DNA from: Negativicutes bacterium
Lineage (GTDB): Bacteria; Bacillota; Negativicutes; JAGPMH01
Assembly: GCA_018052945.1 (NCBI GenBank)
Contig: JAGPMH010000005.1
Span: 1-55,364, forward strand
Direction: 5' to 3'
DNA length: 55,364 bases
Each line of letters opens with the position of its first letter. Position 1 is the first letter of the stretch. Under the pieces are notes generated by a model. That model was given only the letters and a program-made list of their open reading frames with translations, had not been told where the DNA came from and searched no databases. The translations under genes were made by a program, and so were the position numbers. This document shows positions 23,242 to 48,377 of this stretch, one piece after another.

Positions 23242-24528
23242 TTATCGCTCGATTTCCCAGCTTCTGATAATGATGGGCTGAATACCGGCAGAGCCATAGT
23301 TTTGAAATTCTGCGTTAGCATTCCAGACTCTTAGACCCGTTAAGCCGGAGCTAAAAACTCTATCGGGCTTGGTGTCTCGATCAATGAAGCGTAAAATTGG
23401 TAGACCATCAAGACTAATAGTGTGTATAACTTTCCCAGAAGCATCAGGCCTAACATCGATTGTTAAAATATGACTTTGGTTAAGCATAGTATTGTTTTTA
23501 TTGGTAACCTTATTTAATTGGTTAAGGGCGGTGCTCATCGGGATACTCATGGTGTCCTGGCCATTAAGTGGATTAGTATTTAAATTATAAGAATTATCGC
23601 TATTTTTACTCCAGGTAGCAGCTTTAGTGCTCTTTTGCCAAGACTGGTTATTGTAATAATTGTTGGAATAAAGTTTCTCGTAATTATTGGAAATTATTTC
23701 ATTATACCAAGGAGTAGTAGTGCTTTTATAATCAGCAACTACTTTTTTTACGAGAATCTGATCTGGTGTTAGACCGGGATCGTATTGCAATACATATCCT
23801 GACAGATTATTAGGATTGCCATTAGCGAGATAATATATACCATAACCACAATCATTAGGATTAGTAGAGCTTGTTGACTTTAAATTTACTTTGTAATTTA
23901 ATGTAAAGCCGAGGTTGCCGGTAGGGTCTAAGTGATTTTCATCATTAGAATAGACTTTTTGGTTGAAGAGAACCTGATAATAATTTTTACCATCGGGAGC
24001 AGTGGCTGAAGCATTTTCGCCGGAACCAGAGATAGACCAAGGTTTATCGGAAAAAGCGGCATTGTTAAAATATGAAGTTAAGACTGGTGGAGTGGCGGAT
24101 GGTATTAATAAATAAGCCACAACAGTTTTGCTGGTACTACCGACGATACCGGTGGAGCTAACTTTATAATACGAATCATTAGCTGTTACTCCAGCGGGAA
24201 GATTTGTTGTTATTTTAGTAATGCTAACAGTAAAGGTTGGAGAATTATCGTTAGTGTTATCAATTTTAATAGGATTACTACTAAGAGTGGCTGTATTCCA
24301 CACTCTGGTATTGTCGGGGGTGTTTTCTAAAGCGTGAGCCCAGACGTATTGAATACCGGCTTCAGCAACAGCTTGAGCAGAATTTTGTTGGCCGTAATTA
24401 AAAGAAAAAGTTTTACTTAAGCCACTGATATTTTTATTGAAATAAACGCCGGCTAAGGACGTCATAATTAGCAACGAGACCATAGCAAGTACGGTCACAG
24501 AACCATGCTGGTTTGATTTAGAATGCAT
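23242..24528 (-). CDS. PilX-like large type IV pilus-associated protein
   Basis: This 428-residue protein has an N-terminal hydrophobic helix (SVTVLAMVSLLIMTSLAGVY) preceded by the short basic leader MHSKSNQHG, in the style of PilX. It lacks Glu5, as PilX-type and GspK-type proteins often vary there. The long C-terminal domain contains many N, S, T and Y residues and resembles an exported beta-rich domain, with DGLPILRFID near the end. It is last in a four-gene pilin-like operon, with GGAGG inside the end of the preceding gene. The role, pilus tip or assembly initiation, is inferred from context. Confidence 0.7.
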   Translation of the reverse strand: MHSKSNQHGSVTVLAMVSLLIMTSLAGVYFNKNISGLSKTFSFNYGQQNSAQAVAEAGIQYVWAHALENTPDNTRVWNTATLSSNPIKIDNTNDNSPTFTVSITKITTNLPAGVTANDSYYKVSSTGIVGSTSKTVVAYLLIPSATPPVLTSYFNNAAFSDKPWSISGSGENASATAPDGKNYYQVLFNQKVYSNDENHLDPTGNLGFTLNYKVNLKSTSSTNPNDCGYGIYYLANGNPNNLSGYVLQYDPGLTPDQILVKKVVADYKSTTTPWYNEIISNNYEKLYSNNYYNNQSWQKSTKAATWSKNSDNSYNLNTNPLNGQDTMSIPMSTALNQLNKVTNKNNTMLNQSHILTIDVRPDASGKVIHTISLDGLPILRFIDRDTKPDRVFSSGLTGLRVWNANAEFQNYGSAGIQPIIIRSWEIER

Positions 24529-24531
24529 TTA

Positions 24532-25038
24532 TTAATTTCCTCCTAACCGAGCTGAATTGTTCATTAGAAAAATAGTTTCAGTAATGGTTTGAGTAACTGC
24601 ACCAGTTGTAAAGGTCATAGTTAGCTTAATAGCTGAATTATTAATATTTTTCACGACAAAGTCGTTATTATTAATGCTGGCGATTGTAGCGTTAGTGATA
24701 GGAACTTTTTTTCCACTGCCGACCTGGCGAGTGAGTTCATTATTTACAATAGCATAAGTGATAGTTTGGGTTAAATTATTGGGTTTGACAAAAGTTAGGC
24801 TATGACCTTCAAAGCTGTTAGAAGGCGTTGAAATACTGTAGCCTGACTTGATATCTTCAGACATTAAGCTCAGTGCCCAGCGTGATTCTTGTAATAAATC
24901 GATATTGTTTGTTCCGGTTTGAATGATATTAATGGTATTTCCTAAAGTTACAGCAGTGGTGGTAATAATGATGATTGATACTGCTAGACCAATCAGTAAT
25001 TCGGCTAAACTAAAGCCTTGTTGATTTGTTTGTTTCAT
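24532..25038 (-). CDS. PilW/PulJ-like pseudopilin
   Basis: This 168-residue protein has a classic prepilin N terminus: leader MKQTNQQG, cleavage before FSLAELLIGLAVSIIIITTT, with Glu5 after the cleavage point. The C-terminal domain has a SRWALSLMSEDIKSGY segment typical of the PilW/GspJ group. It would be processed by prepilin peptidase and inserted in a pilus or pseudopilus tip. TAGAGG precedes the ATG. Part of the four-gene minus-strand operon. Confidence 0.8.
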   Translation of the reverse strand: MKQTNQQGFSLAELLIGLAVSIIIITTTAVTLGNTINIIQTGTNNIDLLQESRWALSLMSEDIKSGYSISTPSNSFEGHSLTFVKPNNLTQTITYAIVNNELTRQVGSGKKVPITNATIASINNNDFVVKNINNSAIKLTMTFTTGAVTQTITETIFLMNNSARLGGN

Positions 25039-25052
25039 ATAAAACCTCTATT

Positions 25053-25532
25053 TTAAGATTTGCCAGAAAGATCGCGGAGGTAGTATTTATCAAGATAAAT
25101 ATTTTCATTTGATTTAGTATTAATAGCAGTTATTTTAGCGTGAATTAGGCGTTCTGCAACATTATTAATATTAGCAATCTTAGCAGTTATGATGATCTTG
25201 GTATTAACAGGGAGTTTGTCAGGATTAAAATTATAGCTTTCGAGCGTGCTCCTTATTAGGGTATCTGAAGAATTTGGTGCTGTTGAGTTATACAGCTCGG
25301 TAAAATCATCTTGCTCAAGAACTAGGTTATGCCAATTATTAATATTGATAGTTTGTAAAGCCTCACCGTAAGAAGTTGCTAATTGATATAATTGAGTTTG
25401 CGAATTGTTTACTCCGAAGGTTTTGCTACTGGTGAAAATTAATAGCAAGATTGCCAGTGAAATTGTAGTAAGCAATAATCCAAGGAGTGAGTCTACTAAG
25501 ACAAAGCCGTTATGTGGTGATAGTTTAATCAT
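25053..25532 (-). CDS. PilV-like pseudopilin with Asp at the +5 position
   Basis: This 159-residue protein begins MIKLSPHNG, with cleavage expected before FVLVDSLLGLLLTTISLA. Position +5 after the cut is Asp instead of the near-universal Glu. The ATG at 25532 is used because GAGGTT lies just upstream and the leader then has normal length; a longer frame would put 16 unlikely residues before it. The C-terminal region has no recognised motif. Its length and operon position fit a minor pilin of the PilV/GspI type. Confidence 0.75.
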   Translation of the reverse strand: MIKLSPHNGFVLVDSLLGLLLTTISLAILLLIFTSSKTFGVNNSQTQLYQLATSYGEALQTININNWHNLVLEQDDFTELYNSTAPNSSDTLIRSTLESYNFNPDKLPVNTKIIITAKIANINNVAERLIHAKITAINTKSNENIYLDKYYLRDLSGKS

Positions 25533-25542
25533 AAGAACCTCA

Positions 25543-26019
25543 TTAATTTTCTTCGGATTTATAAGTAGGATTGCTTTCATTTGATATTCTAATGCGATGG
25601 GTTGTTTTCGCTAAAATAATATGTTGCGATTTATTACTGGTGTTATCCGTTATAGTGATGATATAAGGGGTATTGTTGGTTAAGTTTTTAGCATCAAAGC
25701 TTAATGTTAACGGCAAAGTGCCGTTGTTGTTACTTAGCTTTAAAGTTTGAGGTAAAGGCTGAGTCTTTATGACGACGTTATTGGTTAGTAGTTGATAATA
25801 AGTTTCGGCTAACTTTAACTGGCAGGTTTGAGTGGTGTTGTTTTCAAGTGCTTGGAATTGTAAATTTCTGATATCGGCAGCTAATTGTTCAGTGCTAGTT
25901 GTTAAATAATTATTATTAACTGATTGTTGACCGGAAAATAAGGCAAAGCTACAGATTATTGCTAAAATTGCTAAGGTTATTAGAACTTCCGGCAAGGTAT
26001 AGCCATATTGTTTCGTAAT
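25543..26019 (-). CDS. FimT/GspH-like pseudopilin, apparent ATT start
   Basis: The mature N terminus YTLPEVLITLAILAIICSFA is a textbook prepilin helix with Glu5. The codons immediately before it read TKQYG, a short basic leader. No ATG, GTG or TTG occurs in frame between this leader and the upstream stop. An ATT codon at 26019-26017 would give a leader MTKQYG, with a GGGGGG ribosome-site tract 3 nt upstream. A TTG inside the mature helix (25995) would remove the cleavage site and is unlikely. The protein has about 158 residues, with the FimT/GspH feature TEQLAADIRNLQFQALENN. It is the first gene of the pilin-like operon. Confidence 0.78.
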   Translation of the reverse strand: MTKQYGYTLPEVLITLAILAIICSFALFSGQQSVNNNYLTTSTEQLAADIRNLQFQALENNTTQTCQLKLAETYYQLLTNNVVIKTQPLPQTLKLSNNNGTLPLTLSFDAKNLTNNTPYIITITDNTSNKSQHIILAKTTHRIRISNESNPTYKSEEN

Positions 26020-31479: not shown

Positions 31480-31620
31480 ATGGCTAAACGCATTAAAACT
31501 GTAAACAAGGCTTCTCTACAAGCTACTGCTCATACTGGTGGTTGTGGTGAATGTCAAGCATCTTGCCAATCAGCTTGCAAAACTTCATGCACGGTAGGCA
31601 ATCAAGCTTGCCAAAAATAA
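31480..31620 (+). CDS. scfA: SCIFF ribosomal peptide precursor (six cysteines in forty-five)
   Basis: This 46-residue peptide has the SCIFF consensus: a basic start (MAKRIKTVNKASLQ) and six cysteines at positions 22, 25, 29, 33, 37 and 44 within GCGECQASCQSACKTSC and TVGNQAC. AGGAGGG lies 6 nt before the ATG. The adjoining radical SAM/SPASM gene encodes its maturase, which in studied systems forms a thioether between a cysteine and the threonine five residues later; Cys33 and Thr38 here match that spacing. SCIFF is conserved across Clostridia and relatives, and its biological role is unsettled. Confidence 0.96.
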   Translation: MAKRIKTVNKASLQATAHTGGCGECQASCQSACKTSCTVGNQACQK

Positions 31621-31633
31621 GGCACGCAAGGAG

Positions 31634-31668
31634 ATCCTCTTGCCACTATGGTGAGAGGATTACTGTTT
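31634..31668 (+). terminator. Hairpin between SCIFF peptide and maturase genes, possible partial terminator
   Basis: ATCCTCT (31634-31640) pairs with AGAGGAT (31654-31660), with a further CAC/GTG pair inside and loop TATG. A T-rich stretch (TACTGTTTTCTT) follows. The U-tract is interrupted, so it may act as a leaky terminator or an RNA stability element that keeps peptide expression above enzyme expression. Confidence 0.6.
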
Positions 31669-31703
31669 TCTTAGAGAAGTATGTTGTAAAGAGGAGTTTT
31701 GAA

Positions 31704-33053
31704 GTGAAAATTCATAAGTTTCAACTAAATGGCATGTATATAATGCTAGATATAAATAGTGGTGTTGTCCATATTATTGATGAGATGATTGATAAGATTA
31801 TGGATATCTATAATGGTAGTAATAAGGCAGAGGTTATTGATGCTTTATCCACCTTTTATCCTGAGAGTGAATTAAATGAAGCGTTACTTGAACTGGATGA
31901 ATTAATTGATAATAAAGAATTGTTTGCCGAAGACTTATCGCTTCCTCCAACTTTTAGTGAGGAGCCACTGGTAAAATCATTGTGTCTACATGTCGCTCAT
32001 GATTGTAATTTGCGTTGTCAATATTGTTTTGCGAGCACCGGTGATTTTGGGTTAGATCGTAGTATGATGACTACAGACATTGGTGAAAAGGCGGTTGACT
32101 TTATTATTGCCAATAGTGGCAATCGAACTAATTGTGAGATGGATTTTTTTGGTGGCGAGCCACTGATGAACATGCCGGTGGTAAAGCATGTTGTTTCTTA
32201 TATTAGAAAGCGTGAAATTGAAAGTGGGAAAAAATTCAAACTTACGTTGACTACGAATGGTGTTTTGTTAAATGATGATAATATTAATTATTTAAAGGAT
32301 AATGACATCAGTTTGGTGTTGAGTTTAGATGGACGGAAAGAAGTCCATGATAAAATGCGTCCGAATATGGCGGGACAAGGTAGCTATGAGAAATCATTAG
32401 CTAATTTTAAACAAGCAGTAGTGGCTAACAATGGGCAAAATTATGTTTTGCGCGGAACGTTTACAGCGTATAATTTAGATTTCATGGCAGATGTGCTTGA
32501 TATGGTAGATAAAGGCTTTGCTAATGTTTCAGTTGAGCCGGTAGTATCTAAAGATGTTCCTTATGCCTTAGAGCAAGAACACTTACCACAACTTTTTGCC
32601 GAGTATGAAAAATTGGCGATTGAATTTATCAATCGCAAAAATACTGATAAAGACTTTGCTTTTTTCCATTTTAATATGGATATTCATAACGGCCCTTGTA
32701 TTGCAAAACGCCTTAGTGGCTGTGGCGCCGGACATGAATATTTCGCAGTAGCACCAAATGGTGATTTATATCCGTGTCATCAATTTGTTGGTCGAGAAAA
32801 TTATCTAATGGGTAATATTTTTGACGGTGTGAAGAAAAAGGAAGTTTCAGCAGATTTTCGTAACGCTCATGTATTAAATAAAGAAGAATGTAGCAAGTGT
32901 TGGGCAAGATTTTTCTGTAGCGGAGGCTGTCACGCTAATGCTGATTTATTTAATAGCAATATCTATCAACCATATGAAATAGGTTGTGAATTGCAAAAGA
33001 AAAGATTAGAATGTGCACTAATGATTCAAGCTCAGCTGGCAATAGTCGATTAA
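31704..33053 (+). CDS. scfB: SCIFF maturase, radical SAM/SPASM protein
   Basis: This 449-residue enzyme has an N-terminal peptide-binding region (about residues 1-90), then the radical SAM motif CNLRCQYCF (a CxxxCxxC cluster), SAM-binding GGEPLM and a TIM-barrel core. A SPASM domain with auxiliary cluster cysteines follows (GCGAGHEYFAVAPNGDLYPC, then CSKCWARFFCSGGCHAN and a terminal CELQKKR). It would install the thioether crosslink on the SCIFF peptide in the cytoplasm. GTG 31704 follows GAGGAG at 7 nt. An in-frame extension to 31551 would overlap the peptide gene and is unlikely. Confidence 0.95.
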   Translation: MKIHKFQLNGMYIMLDINSGVVHIIDEMIDKIMDIYNGSNKAEVIDALSTFYPESELNEALLELDELIDNKELFAEDLSLPPTFSEEPLVKSLCLHVAHDCNLRCQYCFASTGDFGLDRSMMTTDIGEKAVDFIIANSGNRTNCEMDFFGGEPLMNMPVVKHVVSYIRKREIESGKKFKLTLTTNGVLLNDDNINYLKDNDISLVLSLDGRKEVHDKMRPNMAGQGSYEKSLANFKQAVVANNGQNYVLRGTFTAYNLDFMADVLDMVDKGFANVSVEPVVSKDVPYALEQEHLPQLFAEYEKLAIEFINRKNTDKDFAFFHFNMDIHNGPCIAKRLSGCGAGHEYFAVAPNGDLYPCHQFVGRENYLMGNIFDGVKKKEVSADFRNAHVLNKEECSKCWARFFCSGGCHANADLFNSNIYQPYEIGCELQKKRLECALMIQAQLAIVD

Positions 33054-34179: not shown

Positions 34180-35193
34180 ATGGCAGTAAAAGTAGCGATC
34201 AATGGTTTTGGACGTATTGGACGTCTTGCGTTCAGACAAATGTTCGGAGCAGAAGGATATGAGATTGTAGCAATCAATGACTTAACAAGTCCTACAATGC
34301 TAGCTCACTTATTAAAATACGATTCAGCTCAAGGCAGATACGCATTAGGTGATACAGTAGTAGCTGGTGAAGATTCAATCACAGTTGATGGCAAAGAAAT
34401 TAAAATCTATGCAAAACCAAACCCTGAAGAATTACCTTGGGGCGAATTAAACGTAGATGTAGTACTTGAATGTACTGGTTTCTTCGCTTCTAAAGACAAA
34501 GCAGCAGCTCACATTAAAGCAGGCGCTAAAAAAGTTGTTATCTCAGCTCCAGCTGGTAACGACCTTCCAACAGTAGTATTCAATGTTAACCATGAAGTGT
34601 TAAAAGCTAGCGATACAGTTATTTCCGCAGCTTCTTGCACAACTAACTGTTTAGCTCCAATGGCGCAAGCTCTTAACGACTTAGCTAAAATCAAAAGTGG
34701 TATCATGTCAACAATTCATGCTTACACTGGCGACCAAATGGTTCTTGATGGCCCTCAAAGAAAAGGTGACTTAAGAAGATCCCGTGCGGCTGCAGTTAAT
34801 ATCGTTCCTAACTCCACTGGTGCTGCAAAAGCTATCGGTTTAGTTATTCCTGAATTAAATGGTAAATTAATTGGTTCTGCACAACGTGTTCCAACTCCAA
34901 CTGGTTCAACTACTATCTTAGTTGCTGTTGTAGAAGGTACTGTTACTAAAGATCAAGTTAATGCTGCTATGAAAGCTGCTGCTAACGAATCTTTCGGTTA
35001 CACTGAAGAAGAATTAGTATCAAGCGATATCATCGGTATTAAATTTGGTTCATTATTTGATGCAACTCAAACAATGGTTTCTCCAATGGATAACGGTTGC
35101 ACTCAAGTTCAAGTTGTTTCATGGTATGACAATGAAAACAGCTACACTAGCCAAATGGTTCGTACAATCAAATACTTTGCAGAACTTGCATAA
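34180..35193 (+). CDS. gap: Glyceraldehyde-3-phosphate dehydrogenase
   Basis: This 337-residue enzyme oxidises and phosphorylates glyceraldehyde 3-phosphate with NAD+. The NAD fold starts [15 protein letters not shown], the catalytic cysteine lies in [13 protein letters not shown] (near residue 153), and the loop HAYTGDQ is typical. The third-position bias is that of a highly expressed gene. AGGGGG precedes the ATG. It opens the lower glycolysis cluster, but a strong hairpin lies before pgk. Confidence 0.97.
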
Positions 35194-35208
35194 TTATTAA
35201 ATAATTAA

Positions 35209-35240
35209 GGTCCGGCCGTGTTGGGCCGGACCATTTTTTT
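35209..35240 (+). terminator. Strong terminator between gap and pgk
   Basis: A perfect 9-bp GC-rich stem (GGTCCGGCC and complement, loop GTGTTG) is followed by A and seven T residues, directly next to the pgk ribosome site AGGAGG. It should reduce transcription of the downstream glycolytic genes relative to gap. Confidence 0.92.
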
Positions 35241-35253
35241 AGGAGGAAGAGAA

Positions 35254-36441
35254 ATGCTAAACAAAAAAAGCATTAGAGACATTGATGTAAATGGTAAAAA
35301 AGTTTTTATCCGTGTAGATTATAATGTACCAATGGATGAAAACCAAAACATTACTAATGATAAAAGAATTGTTGCTACATTACCTACTTTAAATTATTTA
35401 TTGGAAAATAATGCGGCACTTATTATTGCGTGTCATTTAGGTCGTCCAAAAGGTGAAAGAGTTCCTGAGTTTTCAGTTGCTCCGGTTGCTAAAAAATTAG
35501 GCGAAATCATGGGCAAAGAAGTTAAATTTGCATCTGATTGTGTTGGTCCGGAAGCTGAAAAAATGGCTGCAGACTTAAAGCCTGGCGAAATTTTAGTATT
35601 AGAAAATCTTCGTTATCATAAGGAAGAAGAAAAAAATGATCCTAAATTTGCTGAGCAATTAGCTAAATTAGCTGATATTGTAGTAAATGATGCTTTTGGT
35701 GTTTCGCATAGAGCCCATGCTTCAGTAGAAGGAATTACAAAATTCATTCCTGCTGTTGCTGGTTTCTTAATGGAAAACGAAATTAAATTCGTTGGACAAG
35801 CGGTTGCTAATCCTGTTAGACCATTCGTTGCGATTATTGGTGGAGCTAAAGTTTCTGATAAAATTGGTGTAATCTCCAACTTGTTAGAAAAAGTTGACAC
35901 TTTGATCATTGGTGGCGGCATGGCGAATACTTTTGTTGCTGCTCAAGGCTTCAATACAGGAAAATCTTTAGTGGAAGCTGATAAATTAGAACTTGCACGC
36001 GAGCTAATTGAAAAAGCAAAAGCGACTAAGGTTAATTTATTATTACCAACTGATATGGTTATTGCTGATAAATTTGCTGCTGATGCACAAACAGCAGTAG
36101 TTGGCTTAGATGGTATTAAAGATGAGTGGATGGCACTTGATATCGGACCTGAAACTGCAAAAACTTATGCTAAATCTTTAGTTGATGCGAAAACTGTAGT
36201 GTGGAACGGACCAATGGGCGTATTTGAAATCGATGCTTTTGCTAAAGGTACTGAAGCTGTTGCAAAAGCTGTTGCCGATTCAAGCGCAACTAGTATTGTT
36301 GGTGGTGGCGATTCTATTGCTGCCCTTAAAAAGACTGGTCTTTCTGATAAAATTTCTCATATTTCCACAGGTGGCGGAGCTTCCTTGGAATTCTTAGAAG
36401 GTAAAGTATTACCTGGTATTGCAGCACTTGCTGATAAATAA
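35254..36441 (+). CDS. pgk: Phosphoglycerate kinase
   Basis: This 395-residue enzyme transfers phosphate from 1,3-bisphosphoglycerate to ADP. It has the N-domain motif [10 protein letters not shown], substrate arginines in HLGRPKG and [10 protein letters not shown], and the nucleotide-side NGPMGVFE and GGGDSIAAL loops. ATG 35254 follows AGGAGG at 7 nt; a longer frame from 35218 starts inside the terminator hairpin. It has no obvious promoter of its own between the terminator and the start. Confidence 0.97.
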
Positions 36442-36446
36442 TTTAA

Positions 36447-36475
36447 TAGGTTTAGATGCTTAGTATCTAAACCTA
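36447..36475 (+). other. Hairpin between pgk and tpiA
   Basis: TAGGTTTAGAT and its complement form a perfect 11-bp stem with a 7-nt loop, followed by TATTTATAATTTT without a clean U-run. It may be a weak terminator, a processing site or a stability element. Confidence 0.65.
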
Positions 36476-36521
36476 TATTTATAATTTTAAAAATAAATAT
36501 AAATTTTAGGGGGATTTTATA

Positions 36522-37268
36522 ATGCGTAAACCAATAATTGCTGGTAACTGGAAAATGCACAATACAATGGCTGAGGCTAAAACTTTAGTTAAAGATTTAG
36601 CGGCATTAGTAGCTGATGCTCAAGCGGAAGTAGTAGTATGCGCGCCTTTCACTGCTCTTGCAGCAGCTAAAGAAGCAGCTCAAGGTACTAACGTTAAAGT
36701 TGGAGCACAAAATATTCATTGGGAAGCTAAAGGTGCTTTTACTGGTGAAATTTCTGCTGCGATGTTAAAAGAAATCGGCGTAGAATATGTTGTAGTTGGT
36801 CACAGCGAACGTCGTCAATACTTTGCTGAAACTGATGAAACTGTAAATAAAAGAACTAAAGCGGCATTAGCGGCTGGAATTATTCCAATCGTATGTTGTG
36901 GTGAAACATTAGAAGAGCGTGAAGCTAATATCACTGAAAAAATCGTTGGCGATCAAGTTAAAGCTGATTTAGCTGATTTAACAGCTGCAGAAGTTGCAAG
37001 CTTAGTAATTGCTTACGAACCAGTTTGGGCTATTGGTACAGGTAAAACTGCTACTGATGATCAAGCTAATGAAGTTTGTACTTTTATCCGTAAAACAATT
37101 GCTGATCTTTTTGGTCAAGAAGCTGCTGATAAAGTTAGAATTCAATACGGCGGTAGTGTAAAACCTGCGACTATTAGCAACCTAATGGCGAAAAGCGATA
37201 TCGATGGTGCTTTAGTTGGTGGTGCTTCTCTTAAAGCTGAAGACTTCAGTCAAATCGTGAAATTTTAA
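36522..37268 (+). CDS. tpiA: Triosephosphate isomerase
   Basis: This 248-residue TIM barrel has the N-terminal GNWKMHNT motif, catalytic histidine in VVGHSERR, catalytic glutamate in [14 protein letters not shown], and the phosphate loop YGGSVKP. It interconverts dihydroxyacetone phosphate and glyceraldehyde 3-phosphate. It links the glycerol 3-phosphate route encoded at 42.8-46.9 kb to lower glycolysis. AGGGGG precedes the ATG. Confidence 0.97.
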
Positions 37269-37285
37269 TTTAGGTGGATGAAAAT

Positions 37286-38818
37286 ATGAGTACATTAAAA
37301 GCTCCGGTTGCTTTGGTTATTTTAGATGGATGGGGTCTAGGTAAACAAGATGATCCATCAAATGCCATTGTTGCTGCTAAAACGCCTAATATGACAGCAT
37401 TACTACAAGAATATCCAACAACTGCGCTTGAATGTTCTGGTGAAGCAGTTGGCTTGCCGGATGGACAAATGGGTAACTCTGAAGTTGGTCACTTAAACAT
37501 CGGGGCAGGTCGCGTAGTATATCAAGAATTAACTAGAATCACTAAAGCAATTCGCGAAGGTGAATTTTATAATAATGATGTTTTAAAATCAGTAGTAGAA
37601 AATGTTAAGAAAAATAATTCTGCACTTCATTTAATGGGGTTGGTATCTAATGGTGGTGTTCATAGCCATATTAATCATTTAGTTGCCTTGATTGAGTTAG
37701 CAAAAAGAAATTCCGTTGAGAAAGTTTATATTCATGCCTTTTTGGATGGACGCGATGTTCCGCCGTCTAGTGCAGAGAAATTTGTTGCTCAATTGGAAGA
37801 GAAAATTGCTGAAATTGGTGCAGGACAAATTGCTACTGTAGCAGGTCGTTATTATGCAATGGATCGTGACAAACGTTGGGATAGAGTTGAAAAAGCATAT
37901 TTAGCAATAGCTTGTGCTGAAGGCAATAAAGCTCTTAGTGCAACTGAAGCTGTTAAAGCATCGTATCAAGCTGAAGTTACGGATGAGTTTGTTCTTCCGA
38001 CTGCTATTGGTAATTATGACGGGATGCAAGAAAATGATGGTGTTATTTTCTTTAACTTCCGTCCGGACAGAGCTAGACAATTAACAAGAGTGTTTACTGA
38101 TCTTGAATTTGACGGTTTTGCTCGCAAAAAAGGCTATTTGCCACTTGCTTTTGCTACATTAACTCAATATGAAGATGGACTGAATGTTGAAGTTGCTTAC
38201 AAGCCACAACGTTTAACTAATACGTTAGGTGAGGTTTTGGCAAAAGAAAATTTAAAACAACTTCGTATTGCGGAAACTGAAAAATACGCTCATGTAACTT
38301 TCTTCTTCAATGGCGGAGAAGAAACAAGCTTGGCAGGTGAAGAAAGAATTTTAGTTTCCTCACCGAAAGTTGCAACTTATGATTTGCAACCAGAAATGAG
38401 TGCGATTGAAGTAACTGATAAAGTTGTAGCAGAAATAACAGCAAAAAATCATGATGTTATTATCTTGAATTTTGCTAACTGTGATATGGTTGGTCATACT
38501 GGTGTTATGAGTGCTGCGGTGAAAGCTGTAGAAACTGTTGACACTTGTTTGGGAAGAGTTGTAGCAGCAATGCAAGACGTTGGTGGAGCGGTATTTATTA
38601 CAGCTGACCATGGTAATGCAGAGTTGATGGAAGACCCTGTAACGCACGGTCCATTCACTGCTCATACAACTAATAAAGTTCCATTTGTGGCAGTTGGCGA
38701 AACTTTAAAAGGCAAAACTTTACAACCAGGTAGTTTAGCTGATATTGCACCAACAATATTGACGTTTGCTGGTGTAACTGTTCCAACTGAAATGACTGGA
38801 AAAAGTTTAATAAAATAG
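37286..38818 (+). CDS. gpmI: 2,3-bisphosphoglycerate-independent phosphoglycerate mutase
   Basis: This 510-residue Mn-dependent enzyme interconverts 3- and 2-phosphoglycerate. It opens with LVILDGWGLG, has the phosphoserine segment NSEVGHLNIGAGR, substrate-site DGRDVPPSS and the C-terminal metal sites NCDMVGHTG and ADHGNAE. ATG 37286 follows TTAGGTGG at 8 nt. It lies 17 nt after tpiA in the same transcript and is followed by a terminator, so eno is separate. Confidence 0.97.
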   Translation: MSTLKAPVALVILDGWGLGKQDDPSNAIVAAKTPNMTALLQEYPTTALECSGEAVGLPDGQMGNSEVGHLNIGAGRVVYQELTRITKAIREGEFYNNDVLKSVVENVKKNNSALHLMGLVSNGGVHSHINHLVALIELAKRNSVEKVYIHAFLDGRDVPPSSAEKFVAQLEEKIAEIGAGQIATVAGRYYAMDRDKRWDRVEKAYLAIACAEGNKALSATEAVKASYQAEVTDEFVLPTAIGNYDGMQENDGVIFFNFRPDRARQLTRVFTDLEFDGFARKKGYLPLAFATLTQYEDGLNVEVAYKPQRLTNTLGEVLAKENLKQLRIAETEKYAHVTFFFNGGEETSLAGEERILVSSPKVATYDLQPEMSAIEVTDKVVAEITAKNHDVIILNFANCDMVGHTGVMSAAVKAVETVDTCLGRVVAAMQDVGGAVFITADHGNAELMEDPVTHGPFTAHTTNKVPFVAVGETLKGKTLQPGSLADIAPTILTFAGVTVPTEMTGKSLIK

Positions 38819-38828
38819 TATTGTTACT

Positions 38829-38867
38829 AAAAGGTTATGGAAAAATTTATTTTTTCATAACCTTTTT
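38829..38867. terminator. Terminator after gpmI
   Basis: A 17-bp stem, AAAAGGTTATGGAAAAA with its complement (one wobble pair) around a small AT loop, ends in five T residues. Confidence 0.88.
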
Positions 38868-38914
38868 ATTTTAATAATTATTTTTAAATAGGTCTTAAAA
38901 TTTTCAGAAAAGTG

Positions 38915-38923
38915 TGATATATT
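38915..38923 (+). promoter_or_regulatory. Extended -10 promoter of eno
   Basis: TGATATATT reads as an extended -10 (TGN followed by TATATT) about 33 bp before the start codon. No strong -35 is visible at normal spacing. Confidence 0.5.
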
Positions 38924-38943
38924 TAAAAAGAAGTTATTTATAG

Positions 38944-40245
<1,302 letters not shown>

Positions 40246-40270
40246 TAGCAGTTTTTAAGGTTCAAAGGAT

Positions 40271-40318
40271 AAATGTCGAAAATTAGCAAAAAACACAATG
40301 CTATTTTCGACATTTTTT
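40271..40318. terminator. Terminator of eno
   Basis: AAATGTCGAAAATTAGCA pairs with TGCTATTTTCGACATTT (one bulge) around a 10-nt loop, followed by T residues. Confidence 0.88.
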
Positions 40319-40450
40319 CTATTTTTTAATACTTTTTTTGATTAATTAGAAGGAAAAATCAAAAACGCGTATAAATATATATTAAAGATAAAAATAAGGT
40401 TAAAAGACCTATAAATCCCTCATAGTTTACTAGTTAGTGAAGGAGGCTTT

Positions 40451-40480
40451 TGACAAATAAAATCTTCTGTCTTGATATTT
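40451..40480 (+). promoter_or_regulatory. Possible promoter of the chemoreceptor gene
   Basis: A perfect TTGACA (40451-40456) is 18 bp from GATATT (40475-40480). AGGAGG at 40442-40447 belongs to no gene I can see. No flagellar-sigma-type promoter was recognised. Confidence 0.45.
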
Positions 40481-40502
40481 AACAATTTAGGGGGTAGAAC
40501 AA

Positions 40503-42422
40503 ATGCAAATCGCGGTTAAACAAGCAATAGTTACTATTGTAGTTGGCATTATTAGTATTTTTACTTATGGACAAACTAATAGTTTTATGGCAGCACTGGC
40601 CTTATTAGTAATATTGGCAGGTGTAGTAGCTTTTTTTGTGAATAAAAATGAACCAGCTCCACCAATCAAAGCCGAAGTAAAACCTGTTTCTTCAGCTCGA
40701 CCAATGGTGAAAAAATCAACAAATGAGATATCAGATTTTAATATGTTGGATATGGCTGAAAATTTAGCATTTTCATCACAACAATTAGCGTGGGGTGTTA
40801 ATCAATATAAAGCATTGTTAAGTAAGGTTGCTGATTTATCAGTTTCGATCAGAAATCAAACTGAGGTAAATGCTAGTAATATTGAAGAAGCAACTGCAGG
40901 GTTAGAAGAAATTGCTTCTTCTGCCGGCAATGTTTCAAAATCATCGCTGGAAACCTTTGAACAGTGTAAAGCATCATCAAGCTTGGCTCAAAAACACCAA
41001 GTTCATATTAGCGAAGTAAGTCAAACAATGCAAAATGTTACTAACATTGTGCAAACGGCAGTTAATGATGTAGAAAAGCTAAATATTGCCTCGGCTAAAA
41101 TTAATGACTTCGTTGTTAAAATAAGAGGAATTGCCAGCCAAACAAATTTATTAGCACTTAATGCGGCGATTGAAGCAGCACGTGCCGGTGAAAATGGCAG
41201 AGGGTTTGCCGTAGTGGCGGATGAAGTTAGAAAACTTGCCGGTGAAAGTGAATTGACTACTAAAGAAATTGAAGATATCGTTACCGAAATAACTTCACAA
41301 ACTCAAGAAATTACGAAAAACATGCAAGCTGGTAATAACAAATTAAAAGAAGTAGAAGAGTTAACAAGAAATTCAGCTGATGCAATGCGCGGTTTGGTTA
41401 GTGATGTTCACACGATGGAAAATACAGTAAATGGCTTATGTGAGCTTTCGGAAAATCAACGCGAAACGACTGAACAAATGGCTAAAGTGATTGAAACAAT
41501 TGGCCATGCTACTGTAGAAATTGCCGGTAGCACTCAAGAATCATTAACAAGAGTTCAAGGGCAAGAACAAAGTATTGAAGATATCTTAGGCTATGCTAAA
41601 AGCATGCTAGTTACCTCCGATACTTTACAAGAAATAGCTGTTAAATTTAAGAAAGATAATGAAATCATCTTTGGGGTAAATCCGTTTGTGGCGCCAAGTG
41701 TGATTAAAGAACAATATGTACCGATTTTAGAGTTAGTAGCAGAAAAAATTGGCTATAAAGCAAGAGTTATTATCGTAACTGATTATGATGCCTTAGGCCG
41801 TACCTTATTACAAGGAACGGTTGATATTGGTTGGTTCTCGCCATTTGCTTATGTTTCTGCAAAAGAAAAAGGAAACGTATTACCATTGGTTACTCCGATT
41901 GTTAATAAAGCAACATCATATACGGGCTATATTATTGCCCGTAAAGATAAGGGTTATAAAACCATTGATGATTTAAAAGGAAAACGTTTCGGTTTTGTTG
42001 ACTCGAAATCTGCTTCTGGGTATGTATATCCTAGAGCATTATTAGCAGCTAGTGGTAAAGATCCGAAATCTTTCTTTGGCGAAACTTTATTTGTGGGTAG
42101 CCATGATCGAGTAATCGAAGGTGTATTAAATGGCTCGTTAGATGCTGGCGCGACGTACTCCGAAGCATTAGAAAGAGTTGGTGCGTCTGGTGTTAACTTA
42201 AATGATTTTGAAATTATCTCCAGCACTGATCCGATTCCAAAAGATGCGATTGCGGCTAGACCTGGCTTTGAGCAAGAATTGGCAGATAAAATTAATGAAG
42301 CCTTTATGGCAACAACAGATAAAGAAAATCCATTTATGACTAAAACTCATATTAATGGTTTCGTAAAAGCAAAAGATGCCGATTATGAAGTAGTAAGAAA
42401 AGCGGCAGCCTTAGTGAAATAA
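40503..42422 (+). CDS. Methyl-accepting chemotaxis protein with C-terminal PhnD-like binding domain
   Basis: This 639-residue protein has two closely spaced membrane helices (about 6-22 and 27-46) with only a few residues between them. The chemoreceptor signalling domain follows (about 80-370), including the tip [20 protein letters not shown] and [14 protein letters not shown]. Residues about 385-639 form a PhnD/SsuA-type binding protein fold: [49 protein letters not shown] and [14 protein letters not shown]. No membrane helix lies between the domains, so the binding domain should be cytoplasmic. It may sense an intracellular anion or phosphonate-like ligand and signal to CheA. The gene is monocistronic. 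Confidence 0.9.
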
Positions 42423-42440
42423 TTTCATTTTAATAATAAT

Positions 42441-42470
42441 GAAACAGGGGATTTACCCCTGTTTCGTTTT
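42441..42470. terminator. Terminator of the chemoreceptor gene
   Basis: A perfect 10-bp stem (GAAACAGGGG and complement, loop ATTTA) is followed by GTTTTG. Confidence 0.82.
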
Positions 42471-42580
42471 GTGAAAGTTTAAAAATCCTTATATAATAAA
42501 GATTTTGCAACCGATAATTTAAGTTATTTATTTACAACGCTTTAAAATGCTAAAATAATGAATAATTTAAGATAAAAGTA

Positions 42581-42674
42581 TTGCCCTAAATTACATAACC
42601 TATTATAATAATATATGGCGTAAATATTTGCGCTAAATAAGACTTTATAATCCGAAACGGACAACATTGTTGTC
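42581..42674 (+). promoter_or_regulatory. Promoter and two palindromes in the glpABC leader
   Basis: TTGCCC (42581-42586) and a perfect TATAAT (42604-42609) are 17 bp apart. GCGTAAATATTTGCGC (42618-42633), an almost perfect palindrome, starts near the expected transcription start. A second, perfect palindrome, GACAACATTGTTGTC, lies at 42660-42674. Both could be operators for control of glycerol 3-phosphate oxidation. The remaining leader to 42804 is AT-rich, with a TTGCAGGTTGCAG direct repeat. No coding sequence was seen in this 380-bp gap. Confidence 0.65.
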
Positions 42675-42804
42675 TTGTTTTGGTTTGCTTATTTTGCAGG
42701 TTGCAGTGAAATAAGACAGTATTAACTTAATTAAGAGCAAGCGTTAAATTATTAATTAAAAATTAATATGTTTGTTCTATTTTTTTACAAAGGAGAGTCA
42801 AAGA

Positions 42805-44430
42805 ATGCAAAAAGCAACAGTTGTGGTAATTGGTGGTGGAGCTACTGGAGTTGGTATCCTTCGTGACTTATCAATGCGCGGAGTTGATGCTCTTTTAATC
42901 GAAAGAGATGATCTTGGCTACGGAACAAGCTCGAGGTACCATGGTTTACTTCATAGTGGTGGTCGTTATGCAGTTAAGGATGCAGAAGCGGCAAGAGAGT
43001 GTATTGAAGAAAATACAATCTTACGTAGAATTGGTAAGCACTGTGTAGAGGCTACAGAAAGTTTATTCGTACGCGCTCCGGAAGATGATGAAGCGTTTGA
43101 ACACGAATGGTTAAAAGCTTGTGCTGCAGTAGGTATTCCAACTATCCCTGTTACAATGGAAGAGGCTTTCAAAATGGAGCCAAACTTAAGCCGTAAATTA
43201 TTATCAGCATATCGTTTACCGGGTGCTGCTATTGATGGCTTCAGAATGACTTGGCAAAATGTTGAGTCAGCAAAAAAATATGGCGGTCGTTGCATAACTT
43301 ACAAAGAGGTTACTAATGTTGATAGCACTAATGGTGTAGTAACTGGCGTAACGATAAAAGATCGCTTTACTGGTGAAGTTGAGAAAATTGCCTGTGACTT
43401 TGTTATTAATGCAGCTGGCTCTTGGGCCGGAGAAATTGCTAACATGGCTGGTATTAAAGTTAATGTTAAACCGGATAAAGGTACATTGATTGCGTTCAAT
43501 CATCGTATTTGTAACCGCGTGGTACATAGACTACATAAACCATCTGATGCAGATATCTTCGTTCCACATGGTTCAATAACTATTTTAGGTACAAGTTCAA
43601 TTCCAACGACTCCAGATGATACGTCTTCAACTACTGAAGAAGTAATCAAAATGATGGAAGTTGGTAAAGTAACTTTCGAAAATATTTATGATTATCGTAT
43701 TTTACGTGTGTTTGCTGGTACTCGTCCACTTTATAGTGCTGACCCTAATGCAGCAGGTCGTGGAGCATCACGTGGTTTCGTATGCTTAGATCATGCTCAT
43801 GATGGTGTTAAACACTTTATCAGTGTATGTGGTGGTAAATTCACAACTTATAGATTAATGGCAGAAAAAGTATGTGATTTAGTATGTGGTCAATTAGGCA
43901 ATACTGTTAAATGTACTACTGCTGAAGTGCCAATCGTTGAAGATCCAAGCCGTGAGTTAATGGGTAAAGCGAAAAAAGTATTCCCAGCTTATGCTTCTGA
44001 GCTTGCTGCTTCACGTTTAGGTAATGAAAGATTAGAACGAGTTATCAATCGCATGAATGAGAAACCAGAAACAAAAGAATTGGTTTGCGAATGCGAAAAC
44101 GTAACTATGGCTGAAGTTGAAGAGATTGCTAAAGAATCTCATACTAGAACAATCAGTGACATTCGTCGCAGAACTCGTATCGGTATGGGAACTTGCCAAG
44201 GTGCATTCTGTGGTTATCGTGCAATTGGTGTTGTTGGTGACTTAGATGCAGTTGATTTAAAATCCAAAAGTAAGATGGATACTAAAGGTCTATTTAAAGA
44301 CTTCGTAGAGCAACGTTGGAAAGGTATTCGTCCAGTCCTTTGGGGTAATATGGCTAGAGAAACAGAACTTACGCGCGGAATTTATGATGCGACTTTAAAC
44401 ATAAATGGAGCGATTGATAATGAAGAATAA
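42805..44430 (+). CDS. glpA: Anaerobic glycerol-3-phosphate dehydrogenase subunit A
   Basis: This 541-residue FAD protein catalyses oxidation of glycerol 3-phosphate to dihydroxyacetone phosphate. The FAD motif VVIGGGATGVGILRDL opens the protein, HGLLHSGGRYAV follows, and VINAAGSWAGE lies mid-protein. A C-terminal BFD-like iron-sulfur domain has CECENVTMAE and GTCQGAFCG. ATG 42805 follows AAAGGAGAG at 8 nt. It works with GlpB and GlpC, which follow, passing electrons to the membrane quinone pool. Confidence 0.95.
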   Translation: MQKATVVVIGGGATGVGILRDLSMRGVDALLIERDDLGYGTSSRYHGLLHSGGRYAVKDAEAARECIEENTILRRIGKHCVEATESLFVRAPEDDEAFEHEWLKACAAVGIPTIPVTMEEAFKMEPNLSRKLLSAYRLPGAAIDGFRMTWQNVESAKKYGGRCITYKEVTNVDSTNGVVTGVTIKDRFTGEVEKIACDFVINAAGSWAGEIANMAGIKVNVKPDKGTLIAFNHRICNRVVHRLHKPSDADIFVPHGSITILGTSSIPTTPDDTSSTTEEVIKMMEVGKVTFENIYDYRILRVFAGTRPLYSADPNAAGRGASRGFVCLDHAHDGVKHFISVCGGKFTTYRLMAEKVCDLVCGQLGNTVKCTTAEVPIVEDPSRELMGKAKKVFPAYASELAASRLGNERLERVINRMNEKPETKELVCECENVTMAEVEEIAKESHTRTISDIRRRTRIGMGTCQGAFCGYRAIGVVGDLDAVDLKSKSKMDTKGLFKDFVEQRWKGIRPVLWGNMARETELTRGIYDATLNINGAIDNEE

Positions 44431-45664
44431 TGATTTAGTTGTTATTGGTAGTGGTTTATCCGGATTATTAACTGCTTGTGTTGCAGCAGGAAAAGGCAAG
44501 AAAGTAACTGTACTTAGCTATGGTGCTGGTACATTAACAATCGGTGGCGGTATTGTTGACTTTATCGGTTATGATGATAATGCTCAACCTGTTAAAAATC
44601 CGTTAGCGGCTTTAAATGAAATCAACCCTGAGCATCCTTATGCAAAAGTTGGTAAAGCAGTAGCAAGTGCAGCGTTCAATGATTTCAAAAAAATCACTGA
44701 AAATGAAGGCTATGCTTACTTAGGTGATGTGAAAAAAAATCGTTGGGTTCCAACAGCAGTTGGCTCCTTTAAACCAACTTGTCTTGTGCCAAAAACAATG
44801 GATACTGACGCTTTAAAATCAGCTAAAGAAGTTTTAGTTGTTGGCGTAAATGGCTTAAAAGATTTCTATGCAAAATTAGTAGCTAAAAACTTACAAGAGT
44901 TTTATGGCGAAGCGAAAAAAGTTACATTTGTAAATGTTGGCTTAGATCTTACTAATGGTCGCGATATCAGTTGTATGGATGTGGCACGTTACTTAGATAC
45001 TAAAGAAGGTCAAACTGAATTTGCTGATAAATTAAAAGCAACAGCTAAACCTGGAATGGTATTAATTGTTCCTCCAGTATTAGGAACTAAACCAGATTAC
45101 AAAGTTTTAAATACTTTAGAGCAAGGATTATCATGTCGCTTTGTAGAAAGTGCAGCAGTTCCTCCATCGGTAACTGGTTACAGATTATGGACGATGATGA
45201 CTAATTATGCTAAAAAATTAGGCGTAAACATTGTAGAAAAAGCTAAAGTTGTTAGTGCTCACGTTGAAAATGGTGAATGTGTTTATGTTGAAACTGAAGG
45301 TTTTGACAGAAAACGTAAATATTATGCTAAATCCTTTATTTTAGCTAATGGTGGAGTTTACGGTGGTGGCTTGGAAGCTCAAATCGGTAAAATGGTAGAA
45401 CCAATTTTTGGTTTTGACATTCCAGCACCAGCAGACCAAGTTCAATGGTCCAATAAAGATTTGATTTCCAATAAAAAACAATTGTTTGCATTGATGGGTG
45501 TTAAAGTTAATACCGGTTTAGTGCCAGTTGATGAACAAGATATGGAAGTAGTTAAAAATGTAAAAGTAGTTGGTCGTAGCTTAGCTGGTTATGATTTCTG
45601 CTTTGAAAAATCTGGTAATGGTGTCGCAATAGCAACTGCTTATAAAGCAGCATTATCGTTATAA
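44420..45664 (+). CDS. glpB: Anaerobic glycerol-3-phosphate dehydrogenase subunit B
   Basis: This 414-residue flavoprotein subunit begins with the nucleotide-binding motif LVVIGSGLSGLLTACVAA and then LTIGGGIVDFIGYD. The segment GFDIPAPADQVQWSN in the C-terminal third is family-typical. It joins GlpA to the membrane-associated GlpC. ATG 44420 overlaps the glpA stop by 11 nt, with GGAG about 9 nt upstream; ATG 44405 would also be in frame. Length fits E. coli GlpB. Confidence 0.92.
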   Translation: MKNNDLVVIGSGLSGLLTACVAAGKGKKVTVLSYGAGTLTIGGGIVDFIGYDDNAQPVKNPLAALNEINPEHPYAKVGKAVASAAFNDFKKITENEGYAYLGDVKKNRWVPTAVGSFKPTCLVPKTMDTDALKSAKEVLVVGVNGLKDFYAKLVAKNLQEFYGEAKKVTFVNVGLDLTNGRDISCMDVARYLDTKEGQTEFADKLKATAKPGMVLIVPPVLGTKPDYKVLNTLEQGLSCRFVESAAVPPSVTGYRLWTMMTNYAKKLGVNIVEKAKVVSAHVENGECVYVETEGFDRKRKYYAKSFILANGGVYGGGLEAQIGKMVEPIFGFDIPAPADQVQWSNKDLISNKKQLFALMGVKVNTGLVPVDEQDMEVVKNVKVVGRSLAGYDFCFEKSGNGVAIATAYKAALSL

Positions 45665-45680
45665 GGGGTGCACAAGAGAA

Positions 45681-46880
45681 ATGAGTAAACATTTGATTGA
45701 TCCAGATAAATGTACTGCTTGTACAGTATGTGTTGCACATTGTCCTGTAACTGCAGCAACAAGAAAATTCCGTGGACCGAAAATAACTGGTCCAGCTTTA
45801 GAAAGAATTAGAATGCAAGTAACGGATGAAGATAATTCATTACAATACTGCTCAAACTGTAAAAATTGCGATATGTCCTGTCCGTCAGGAGTACCAATTT
45901 CTACATTAAATATGATTGCTCGTGCAAATTACCATAAAAAACATAAACAACAAACATGTGATGATATGTTAGCACATGGTGAAGGTATGGGTAAACTTGC
46001 AACAGCTGTACCTGGTTTATCTTCAATGATTAACTTAGGGATGAAAGTTGGTAAAGGTTTAGGAATGATGGGTGTTGTTGGTCTTGCTAACGAAGCACCA
46101 CTTCCTCCATTTGCTAGTGAATCGTTCTATGCAAAATTCAAAAGAATTAAACAAACTAGCTTCCCACAAAAAGTTGTATTTTATCCAGGATGTTTCATTA
46201 ATACTAACCAACCTGAAGTTGGCGTAGCATTAGTGGAAGTATTCCAAAAAAATAACATTGAAGTTATTGTTGATGAAGACTTTGTTTGTTGTGGTTCTCC
46301 ATTAGTAACTGGTGGTTATTTAGATGAAGCAAAACAAAATGCTGACAAAAATCTTTCCATCATTAAAAAATGGACTGAAAAAGGATATCCTGTTATTACG
46401 GCTTGTACTAGCTGTGGCTTAATGCTTAAACAAGAATATCAAGAATTATTCCATTTAGATGCTGATGAAGTAAATGCTAAGAATATGTATGATGCTATTG
46501 AATATCTTGAAATCTTAAATGAAGAAGGTAAATTAAATACAGAATTTAAAACAACAAATGCTAAATTAATGTACCATCCTCCATGTCATTTAAGAGCACA
46601 AGGTTTTGGTTTACCTTCAATGGAAGTATTAAGCTTAGTGCCAGGTGTAGAAATTGAAAACGCTGATGCTGGTTGTTGCGGTATCTCTGGAAGCTATGGT
46701 ATGAAAGCTGATAAATACGAAATTGGTATGAAAGTTGGTTCCAAATTATTTAATCGTATTAAGGAATCAAGTGCGGAAACTGTTGTTTGTGAGTGCGGTA
46801 CTTGCCGTATTCAAATCACTCATGGTTCCGGTACGAAAGCAATTCATCCATTACAATTATTAAACCAAGCTTATAAATAA
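45681..46880 (+). CDS. glpC: Anaerobic glycerol-3-phosphate dehydrogenase subunit C
   Basis: This 399-residue iron-sulfur subunit has two [4Fe-4S] motifs near the N terminus (CTACTVCVAHCP and CSNCKNCDMSCP) and two CCG domains (CCGSPLVTGG and CCGISGSYGMK, with HPPCHLRAQG between). It anchors the complex to the membrane side and delivers electrons to menaquinone. The spacing of 16 nt after glpB and its conserved order support a single complex. Length matches E. coli GlpC (about 396). Confidence 0.95.
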   Translation: MSKHLIDPDKCTACTVCVAHCPVTAATRKFRGPKITGPALERIRMQVTDEDNSLQYCSNCKNCDMSCPSGVPISTLNMIARANYHKKHKQQTCDDMLAHGEGMGKLATAVPGLSSMINLGMKVGKGLGMMGVVGLANEAPLPPFASESFYAKFKRIKQTSFPQKVVFYPGCFINTNQPEVGVALVEVFQKNNIEVIVDEDFVCCGSPLVTGGYLDEAKQNADKNLSIIKKWTEKGYPVITACTSCGLMLKQEYQELFHLDADEVNAKNMYDAIEYLEILNEEGKLNTEFKTTNAKLMYHPPCHLRAQGFGLPSMEVLSLVPGVEIENADAGCCGISGSYGMKADKYEIGMKVGSKLFNRIKESSAETVVCECGTCRIQITHGSGTKAIHPLQLLNQAYK

Positions 46881-46958: not shown

Positions 46959-48377
46959 ATGCTTAAAAAAACAAAAATCGTTTGTACAATGGGTCCAAGT
47001 ACAGAAAAACAAGAAATTATTGAGAATTTATTAAACTCCGGTATGAATGTTGCTCGTTTCAACTTTTCACATGGTGACCATGCTGAACACGGTAACAGAA
47101 TTAACTTAGTAAAAGCAGCTGGTAAAGCTACTGGTAAAACAGTTTCTTTAATGCTTGATACTAAAGGTCCTGAAATGCGTCTTGGTAAATTCGCTGCTGG
47201 TAAAGTGCAATTAGTTGCTGGCAAAAAATTAATCCTTACAGCAGATCAAGATTTCGTTGGTGATGAAACTAAAGTTGCAGTTAGCCATAAAGGTCTGTGC
47301 ACAGAAGTTAAACCTGGCGATACAATCTTACTTTCTGATGGTTTAGTAAGCTTAACAGTTGAAGAAATTCAAGGTACTGATATCGTTACTACTATCATGA
47401 ACAGTGGTATTATGGGAACTTTAAAAAGAGTTGCAGCACCTGGCGTGTCTGTAAACTTACCACCACTTTCTGATAGAGACGTGAAAGACGTTATTTTCGG
47501 TATTTCTCAAGATATGGACTTCATTGCCGCTTCTTTCGTACAAAGAGCAGCTGATGTTAATGCAATCCGTAAAGTTATTACTGATAACAACGGCAAAATG
47601 GAAATCATCTCTAAAATTGAAAACATGGAAGGCGTTGACAATATCGACGAAATCATCGAAGCTTCCGACGGAATCATGGTAGCTCGTGGTGATCTTGGTG
47701 TTGAAATTCCTGCTGAAGATGTACCATTAATTCAAAAAATGATTATTAATAAATGTAATACTGTTGGGAAACCAGTTATCGTTGCAACACAAATGCTTGA
47801 GTCCATGATTAATAATCCACGTCCAACAAGAGCAGAAGCAAGTGATGTTGCTAATGCTATTATGGATGGCACTGATGCAATCATGTTAAGTGGTGAAACT
47901 GCTTCCGGTGATTATCCTGAAGAAGCCGTAAAAACAATGAATAAAATTGCTAACCGTATTGAGTCTTCATTACAATACAATGCATTATTATTAAACAAAG
48001 GTATTGCATTACAACCTACTACAACTGATGCAATCAGCCATGCAACAGTACAAGTTGCTTATGAAATTGATGCTAAAGCAATTGTTACCCCTACTGAAAG
48101 TGGTTATACAACTAAAATGGTATCAAAATATCGTCCAAAAGCTCCAATCATTGCTGTTGCTCCAGACGAAAAAACAGCTAGAAGCTTAAATCTTCGTTGG
48201 GGTGTATATCCAATTATCGGTTCTCGTTGGAGCGATACTGACGAAATGATTATTGGTTCAGTACAAAACTCCGTTGAAGCTGGTTACTTAACATCAGGTG
48301 ATTTAGTAGTTGTAACTGCAGGTATCACTTTAGGTGCTCCTGGCAACACTAACATGATTAAAGTTCACACAGTTTAA
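46959..48377 (+). CDS. pyk: Pyruvate kinase
   Basis: This 472-residue enzyme makes pyruvate and ATP from phosphoenolpyruvate. It has KIVCTMGPST, MLDTKGPEMRLG, the catalytic lysine segment ISKIENMEG, VARGDLGVEIP and PTRAEASDVANAIMDGTD. It lacks the extra C-terminal PEP-utiliser domain found in many Bacillus enzymes. It follows glpABC by 78 nt, past a hairpin, which suggests partial coregulation with glycerol use. Confidence 0.96.
   Translation: MLKKTKIVCTMGPSTEKQEIIENLLNSGMNVARFNFSHGDHAEHGNRINLVKAAGKATGKTVSLMLDTKGPEMRLGKFAAGKVQLVAGKKLILTADQDFVGDETKVAVSHKGLCTEVKPGDTILLSDGLVSLTVEEIQGTDIVTTIMNSGIMGTLKRVAAPGVSVNLPPLSDRDVKDVIFGISQDMDFIAASFVQRAADVNAIRKVITDNNGKMEIISKIENMEGVDNIDEIIEASDGIMVARGDLGVEIPAEDVPLIQKMIINKCNTVGKPVIVATQMLESMINNPRPTRAEASDVANAIMDGTDAIMLSGETASGDYPEEAVKTMNKIANRIESSLQYNALLLNKGIALQPTTTDAISHATVQVAYEIDAKAIVTPTESGYTTKMVSKYRPKAPIIAVAPDEKTARSLNLRWGVYPIIGSRWSDTDEMIIGSVQNSVEAGYLTSGDLVVVTAGITLGAPGNTNMIKVHTV

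Follow-up and report, generated by a model that had tools for sequence, protein, structure and literature searches.

Chemotaxis that depends on metabolism has long been known, and chemoreceptors with internal sensors have already been described, as in E. coli Aer, where a cytosolic PAS/FAD sensor held by a hairpin anchor responds to redox. To our knowledge, few receptors bind a defined central metabolite within the cell. Only in 2025 were chemoreceptors for phosphorylated compounds reported, as a first: PacP of Pectobacterium, of the sCache_PC3 type, senses outside the cell and prefers sn-glycerol 3-phosphate (G3P) (PMC12395807). GpxB, described in the same year, is a PhnD-fold protein that binds both G1P and G3P (PMC12718374).

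Here we analysed a chemoreceptor gene in a 55,364-nucleotide stretch of DNA from a Negativicutes bacterium (hereafter the window), in which a PhnD-type binding domain follows the signalling coil (Table 1). The receptor is real, conserved and cytosolic in its sensing part, and is probably functional. On balance, we favour a role for it as a cytosolic sensor whose ligand is a phosphorylated C3 metabolite, with G3P the most likely candidate, and which reports glycerol use to CheA.

Table 1. Features of the receptor gene and its surroundings, in window coordinates.
Feature	Position	Strand	Basis and remarks
Glycolytic cluster gap-pgk-tpiA-gpmI-eno	34180..40245	+	Upstream; translations and clusters common to relatives; names by sequence reading
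Sigma-70-like promoter TTGACA-18-GATATT	40450..40479	+	Weak: the scan yields no more sites than shuffled sequence
Shine-Dalgarno-like AGGGGG	40489..40494	+	5' of the ATG; read from sequence
Chemoreceptor gene	40503..42422	+	639 aa; membrane hairpin at the N terminus, then signalling coil and, C-terminally, PhnD-type binding domain
Two-helix membrane hairpin, residues 2-48	40506..40646	+	Hydropathy and AlphaFold2; without periplasmic domain
Helical signalling coil, residues 81-382	40743..41648	+	AlphaFold2 and Foldseek; PF00015 at 158-334
F-x-x-Q-Q-L-x-W family motif, residues 90-97	40770..40793	+	Coil start; at least 90% conserved
PhnD/PtxB/HtxB-type two-lobed binding domain, residues 386-639	41658..42419	+	Pfam, AlphaFold2 and Foldseek; cytosolic
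Inverted repeat GAAACAGGGGATTTACCCCTGTTTC, likely terminator	42441..42465	+	3' of the stop codon; scan called the - strand; GTTTTG follows on +
glpA-glpB-glpC, anaerobic glycerol-3-phosphate dehydrogenase	42808..46880	+	Downstream; NCBIfam TIGR03377, TIGR03378 and TIGR03379 above cut-offs
pyk, pyruvate kinase	46959..48377	+	Name by sequence reading

Domain organisation and predicted structure

The open reading frame starts with an ATG just 3' of AGGGGG. Pfam analysis of its product identified an MCPsignal domain (PF00015) at residues 158-334 (2.2e-37) and a Phosphonate-bd domain (PF12974) at residues 390-628 (1.1e-66), the latter covering the full profile (1-242/242), with no Cache match in the protein. 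The NCBIfam model TIGR01098 also scored above its cut-off (1.6e-54), with the PhnD equivalog TIGR03431 scoring only below its own, and since transporter models rate the receptor so highly the gene is easily misnamed as part of an ABC transporter.

An AlphaFold2 model of the receptor, built on 40 orthologues, showed helices at residues 2-25 and 28-48 with a two-residue turn between them and no periplasmic segment, then a linker predicted with low confidence (50-77), a long helical coil (81-382) and, from residue 386, a two-lobed domain predicted with confidence. Using Foldseek, the coil matched the cytoplasmic domain of a T. maritima chemoreceptor (2ch7), and tip residues such as N215, N220, A221 and E241 were invariant in 40 members, which together with the PF00015 match indicates a conserved hairpin tip of the kind that contacts CheA and CheW. 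Structure prediction of the binding domain, proposed at the outset as a check, gave a confident two-lobed fold spanning the full Pfam profile (pLDDT 94.3 when modelled alone), with HtxB and PtxB as the best Foldseek matches (E down to 6e-27) and ArrX, PhnD, AioX and GpxB in the same group. The original prediction of a signalling domain followed by a binding-protein fold of the phosphonate/phosphite type is thus borne out by Pfam, AlphaFold2 and Foldseek. We also observed that F-x-x-Q-Q-L-x-W at the start of the coil is conserved in nearly all family members.

Location of the binding domain

Kyte-Doolittle hydropathy analysis of the receptor detected only two segments above 1.4, at residues 3-21 and 28-46, in agreement with AlphaFold2 and with the earlier claim that the two N-terminal helices are the only membrane helices. 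No hydrophobic stretch was found after residue 60, where the best 19-mer reached 1.06, and no membrane segment was seen between the coil and the binding domain. When the N terminus was judged in 92 homologues, a hairpin was present in 72, no membrane segment in 19 and one was ambiguous, the 19 including one gene fragment (L098) and a single case inside a hairpin-bearing group (L131). Among these anchorless members are Clostridium L054, Synergistota L136-L142 and L083, which a relative from the window's class encodes between glpC and pyk, and a signal peptide-like N terminus is absent from all 19. Gain or loss of the anchor accounts for seven changes on the family tree, and the hairpin is dispensable, since natural members exist without it.

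With no helix past residue 60 and 19/92 homologues lacking a membrane segment, it is nearly certain that the binding domain is cytosolic, as had been claimed from the sequence at the start, and the hidden membrane helix that might have placed it outside did not appear. An ordinary periplasmic receptor, with its binding domain brought outside by export or by a membrane crossing that escaped detection, would be in keeping with the export of close fold relatives, and a misreading of the hairpin is possible in principle. However, we consider this very unlikely indeed, because some members have no anchor, because of hairpin parity and because the signalling domain has to reach CheA; export was rejected, given the lack of a hydrophobic stretch ahead of the domain and of signal peptide-like N termini in members without an anchor.

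Distribution of the receptor family

The family has apparently not been described before, and a literature search covering open-access papers returned no combination of Phosphonate-bd with MCPsignal; two papers that mention a chemoreceptor together with PhnD appeared unrelated. We found the fusion in Negativicutes, Clostridia, Synergistota and one Spirochaeta MAG, with fused domains 37-64% identical to that of the window, as against at most 32% for stand-alone PhnDs. A hand count in the window's class gave 44/380 genomes with a domain closely related to this one (46-64% identity), in nearly every case within a 600-690 aa open frame; in one further genome the domain is in two pieces. Elsewhere, fusions were present in 21/207 genomes of Clostridium magnum's family, 11/198 of Alkaliphilus's order, 13/151 of Acetomicrobium's phylum (Synergistota) and 8/391 sampled evenly across that Clostridia class. 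As the same fusion recurs across dozens of genomes, a chance event is ruled out. When the tree was rooted on two stand-alone proteins, a supported branch set the fused domains apart, the outgroup branches being very long. At L098 (G092:C3:265744-266513) the fusion gene is split over two frames, through a frameshift or a sequencing error.

Ligand pocket of the binding domain

Pocket positions were mapped through alignments to E. coli PhnD, whose Y47, Y93, S127, S129, H157, E177 and D205 correspond to Y428, Y473, S503, S505, H534, E554 and D581 of the receptor. In 91 members these are conserved at 99% (Y428), 100% (Y473, S503, S505 and H534), 84% (E554) and 99% (D581), with a domain mean of 61%, and the Tyr, Tyr, Ser-x-Ser and His that form the phosph(on)ate-head pocket are kept in 90-91/91, so that the phosphorus-head residues of PhnD are present. 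Loss of pocket residues had been named as grounds for abandoning the idea, and the equivalents of Y47, Y93, S127, S129, H157 and D205 instead proved invariant or nearly so.

Conservation within the binding domain peaks at the cleft residues, eight pocket positions averaging 0.975 vs 0.61 overall, a value unmatched in 20,000 random draws. This speaks against the domain having lost small-ligand binding and become a protein-protein or scaffold module, or a sensor of redox or energy state. Two-lobed folds of binding proteins have been adapted to other functions, and binding of a small ligand by this domain is itself a prediction, but we regard such a role as distinctly improbable.

A third oxygen is held by His and Ser in PtxB, PhnD and GpxB, which sets these apart from hypophosphite-binding HtxB (PMC12718374), and the head residues of the receptor correspond to this three-oxygen head site. 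The capping tyrosine of PtxB (Tyr208, on an inferred numbering offset) aligns with D581, so that a phosphite-type pocket was rejected and there is room for a ligand tail. GpxB tail residues Arg223/Thr247 align with Glu554/Asp581, as mapped through PhnD and HtxB rather than directly, the GpxB structure 9lf9 ranking below the best five Foldseek matches. Glu554/Asp581 resemble instead the Glu177/Asp205 pair of E. coli PhnD, and HtxB likewise has Asp at the second tail position (D206; PMC6629693). Taken together, the pocket favours a ligand that has a phosphate or phosphonate head and a polar tail, although the sequence alone does not name it.

Residues 554 and 580 covary in the 91 members (E/K 75, D/K 7, E/R 1, V/A 4, T/T 3 and F/K 1), a pattern that rests on about two independent events. 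Because the two positions change together, a Glu554-Lys580 salt bridge is suggested rather than a free amine site, which would leave Asp581 for the ligand. This bears on whether the receptor is a cytosolic sensor of some other phospho-compound, such as phosphoethanolamine or 2-aminoethylphosphonate (2-AEP) with an amine tail, acetyl phosphate, inorganic phosphate or a phosphonate after uptake. In E. coli PhnD, Glu177/Asp205 bind the 2-AEP amine, and the receptor's match to this amine-binding pair, rather than to the Arg/Thr of G3P-binding GpxB, counts against G3P; the putative salt bridge argues the other way, and we see a sensor of another such compound as a possible but doubtful account. PEP and phosphoglycerates seem less likely ligands than G3P or DHAP, as two acidic residues line the tail side.

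In the fast-evolving L097 (3672-5642, - strand), Phe replaces Glu554 and Glu replaces Asp581, and the pocket may possibly have changed to another ligand. The deep-branching Clostridia members L129-L132 have Val/Ala at 554/580 and adjoin glpA and a PAS-like protein.

Genomic context and linkage to glycerol genes

In the window, the receptor gene is placed between the glycolytic cluster and glpABC-pyk, and GlpABC consumes G3P. We found glpA, glpK, glpF or glpP at most 6.5 kb from the receptor at 23/93 fusion loci, compared with 0/40 control loci, these being other chemoreceptors drawn from genomes carrying the fusion (Fisher p 1.2e-4, kinship ignored); an FGGY kinase gene next to the L062 receptor was left out of this count, as its product is only ~23% identical to GlpK. 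The linkage occurs in at least six gene orders, those in relatives including glpK-glpABC-receptor-pyk-gap-pgk-tpi-gpmI, glpF-glpP-glpK-receptor and glpP-glpK-glpF-receptor, with glpK-glpF-receptor, glpF-glpK-receptor-glpP-glpA, glpP-receptor...glpK-glpA and glpA-x-x-PAS-receptor as further arrangements, and gaps from the receptor to the next gene in relatives are often 24-90 bp. In several Clostridia the neighbour is GlpP (PF04309), a G3P-responsive antiterminator. As the glp-neighbour label is scattered over the tree, with 12 changes, the link is either ancestral or was made repeatedly.

This recurrent linkage is left unexplained if the ligand is another phospho-compound. On the other hand, no glp gene lies nearby at 70/93 loci, some owing to short flanks, and many of these members keep the same pocket, which favours such a compound. 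The window gene also seems to form its own transcription unit, a further point against a G3P sensor. An inverted repeat followed by T occurs 3' of eno and another repeat after the receptor gene, and with the promoter-like site before the receptor this makes a separate unit probable; no Rfam elements were detected within 40000-43000. Neighbours at some of the loci lacking glp genes include mannitol, MurNAc or chemotaxis genes, and in one group of relatives (L080, L081, L084, L085, L087, L088, L090, L092-L094 and L097) the receptor gene faces MurNAc PTS-like and MurQ-like genes, named by sequence reading.

The window's genome encodes a GlpK (86% identical to that of a relative) and eight CheW-domain proteins, so that chemotaxis partners are available. 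No permease or ATPase gene adjoins the receptor in the window, and with no export signal either, it lacks the hallmarks of an ABC substrate-binding protein. Two or more of the CheW-domain proteins are of CheA size, and more than one CheA pathway is therefore possible, one of which could control something other than flagellar motility. We think it unlikely that the receptor feeds such a pathway, as its neighbourhood offers nothing specific and L053, L117, L118 and L121 lie near homologues of cheB, cheR and cheA. These four and L064, from a Proteiniclasticum group, share this arrangement, and L053 and L064 have a second receptor-like ORF near the receptor gene.

Two other regions of the window drew our attention. 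An ORF at 31551-33053 reads like a radical SAM/SPASM peptide-maturing enzyme, and a small precursor peptide may be nearby, while four adjacent ORFs at 23242-25995 (- strand) have prepilin-like N termini and are perhaps minor pilins.

Proposed mechanism and significance

G3P is the most economical ligand, since it combines a phosphate head and a polar tail with the glp neighbourhood, members lacking glp neighbours keeping the same pocket, and we hold this identity to be somewhat better than an even bet. The receptor is anchored in the membrane and carries its sensor on the cytoplasmic face, where the PhnD-type domain would sit next to that end of the signalling hairpin which is closest to the membrane. 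Its lobes would close around the phosphorylated C3 metabolite, closure would alter coil packing at the adjacent end and, in turn, CheA activity, and the cell would follow gradients of glycerol or related C3 substrates by gauging how much of the phosphorylated form it contains. In a chemoreceptor hairpin the first arm begins on the side where the second one finishes, so F-x-x-Q-Q-L-x-W should lie near the binding domain and may well be the coupling site.

If this is true, the cell steers by the level of a central metabolite in its cytosol rather than by an external nutrient or by redox state. The family is widespread and many of its carriers are anaerobes. The idea is directly testable with purified protein, as the domain is soluble and well folded, a ligand candidate can be named and some natural members have no anchor. 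That a transporter-type binding domain has been turned, in a family spanning at least three phyla, into an internal chemotaxis sensor that reads cytosolic G3P directly is a proposal to which we give even chances.

Comparison with known systems

The binding proteins PhnD, PtxB, HtxB and GpxB (PF12974, PhnT family) share the fold and phosphorus-head residues of the receptor domain. However, they are exported parts of ABC transporters, whereas the receptor domain lacks a signal peptide, follows a chemoreceptor coil in the same polypeptide and is cytosolic. PacP is likewise a chemoreceptor for phosphorylated C3 compounds, with G3P preferred there and proposed here, but its sCache domain is periplasmic and lies between two membrane helices; the receptor has no periplasmic sCache domain and carries a C-terminal PhnD fold inside the cell. 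GlpP, encoded next to the receptor in several Clostridia, would share with it a cytosolic response to G3P, although GlpP belongs to an unrelated protein family and controls transcription, not motility. Cytosolic sensors also occur in Aer, which is held by a hairpin anchor, and in H. pylori TlpD, which has no anchor, as well as in soluble receptors. While Aer and TlpD use PAS/FAD or zinc-binding domains to detect redox or oxidants, the receptor described here uses a substrate-binding-protein fold that is predicted to bind its metabolite directly.
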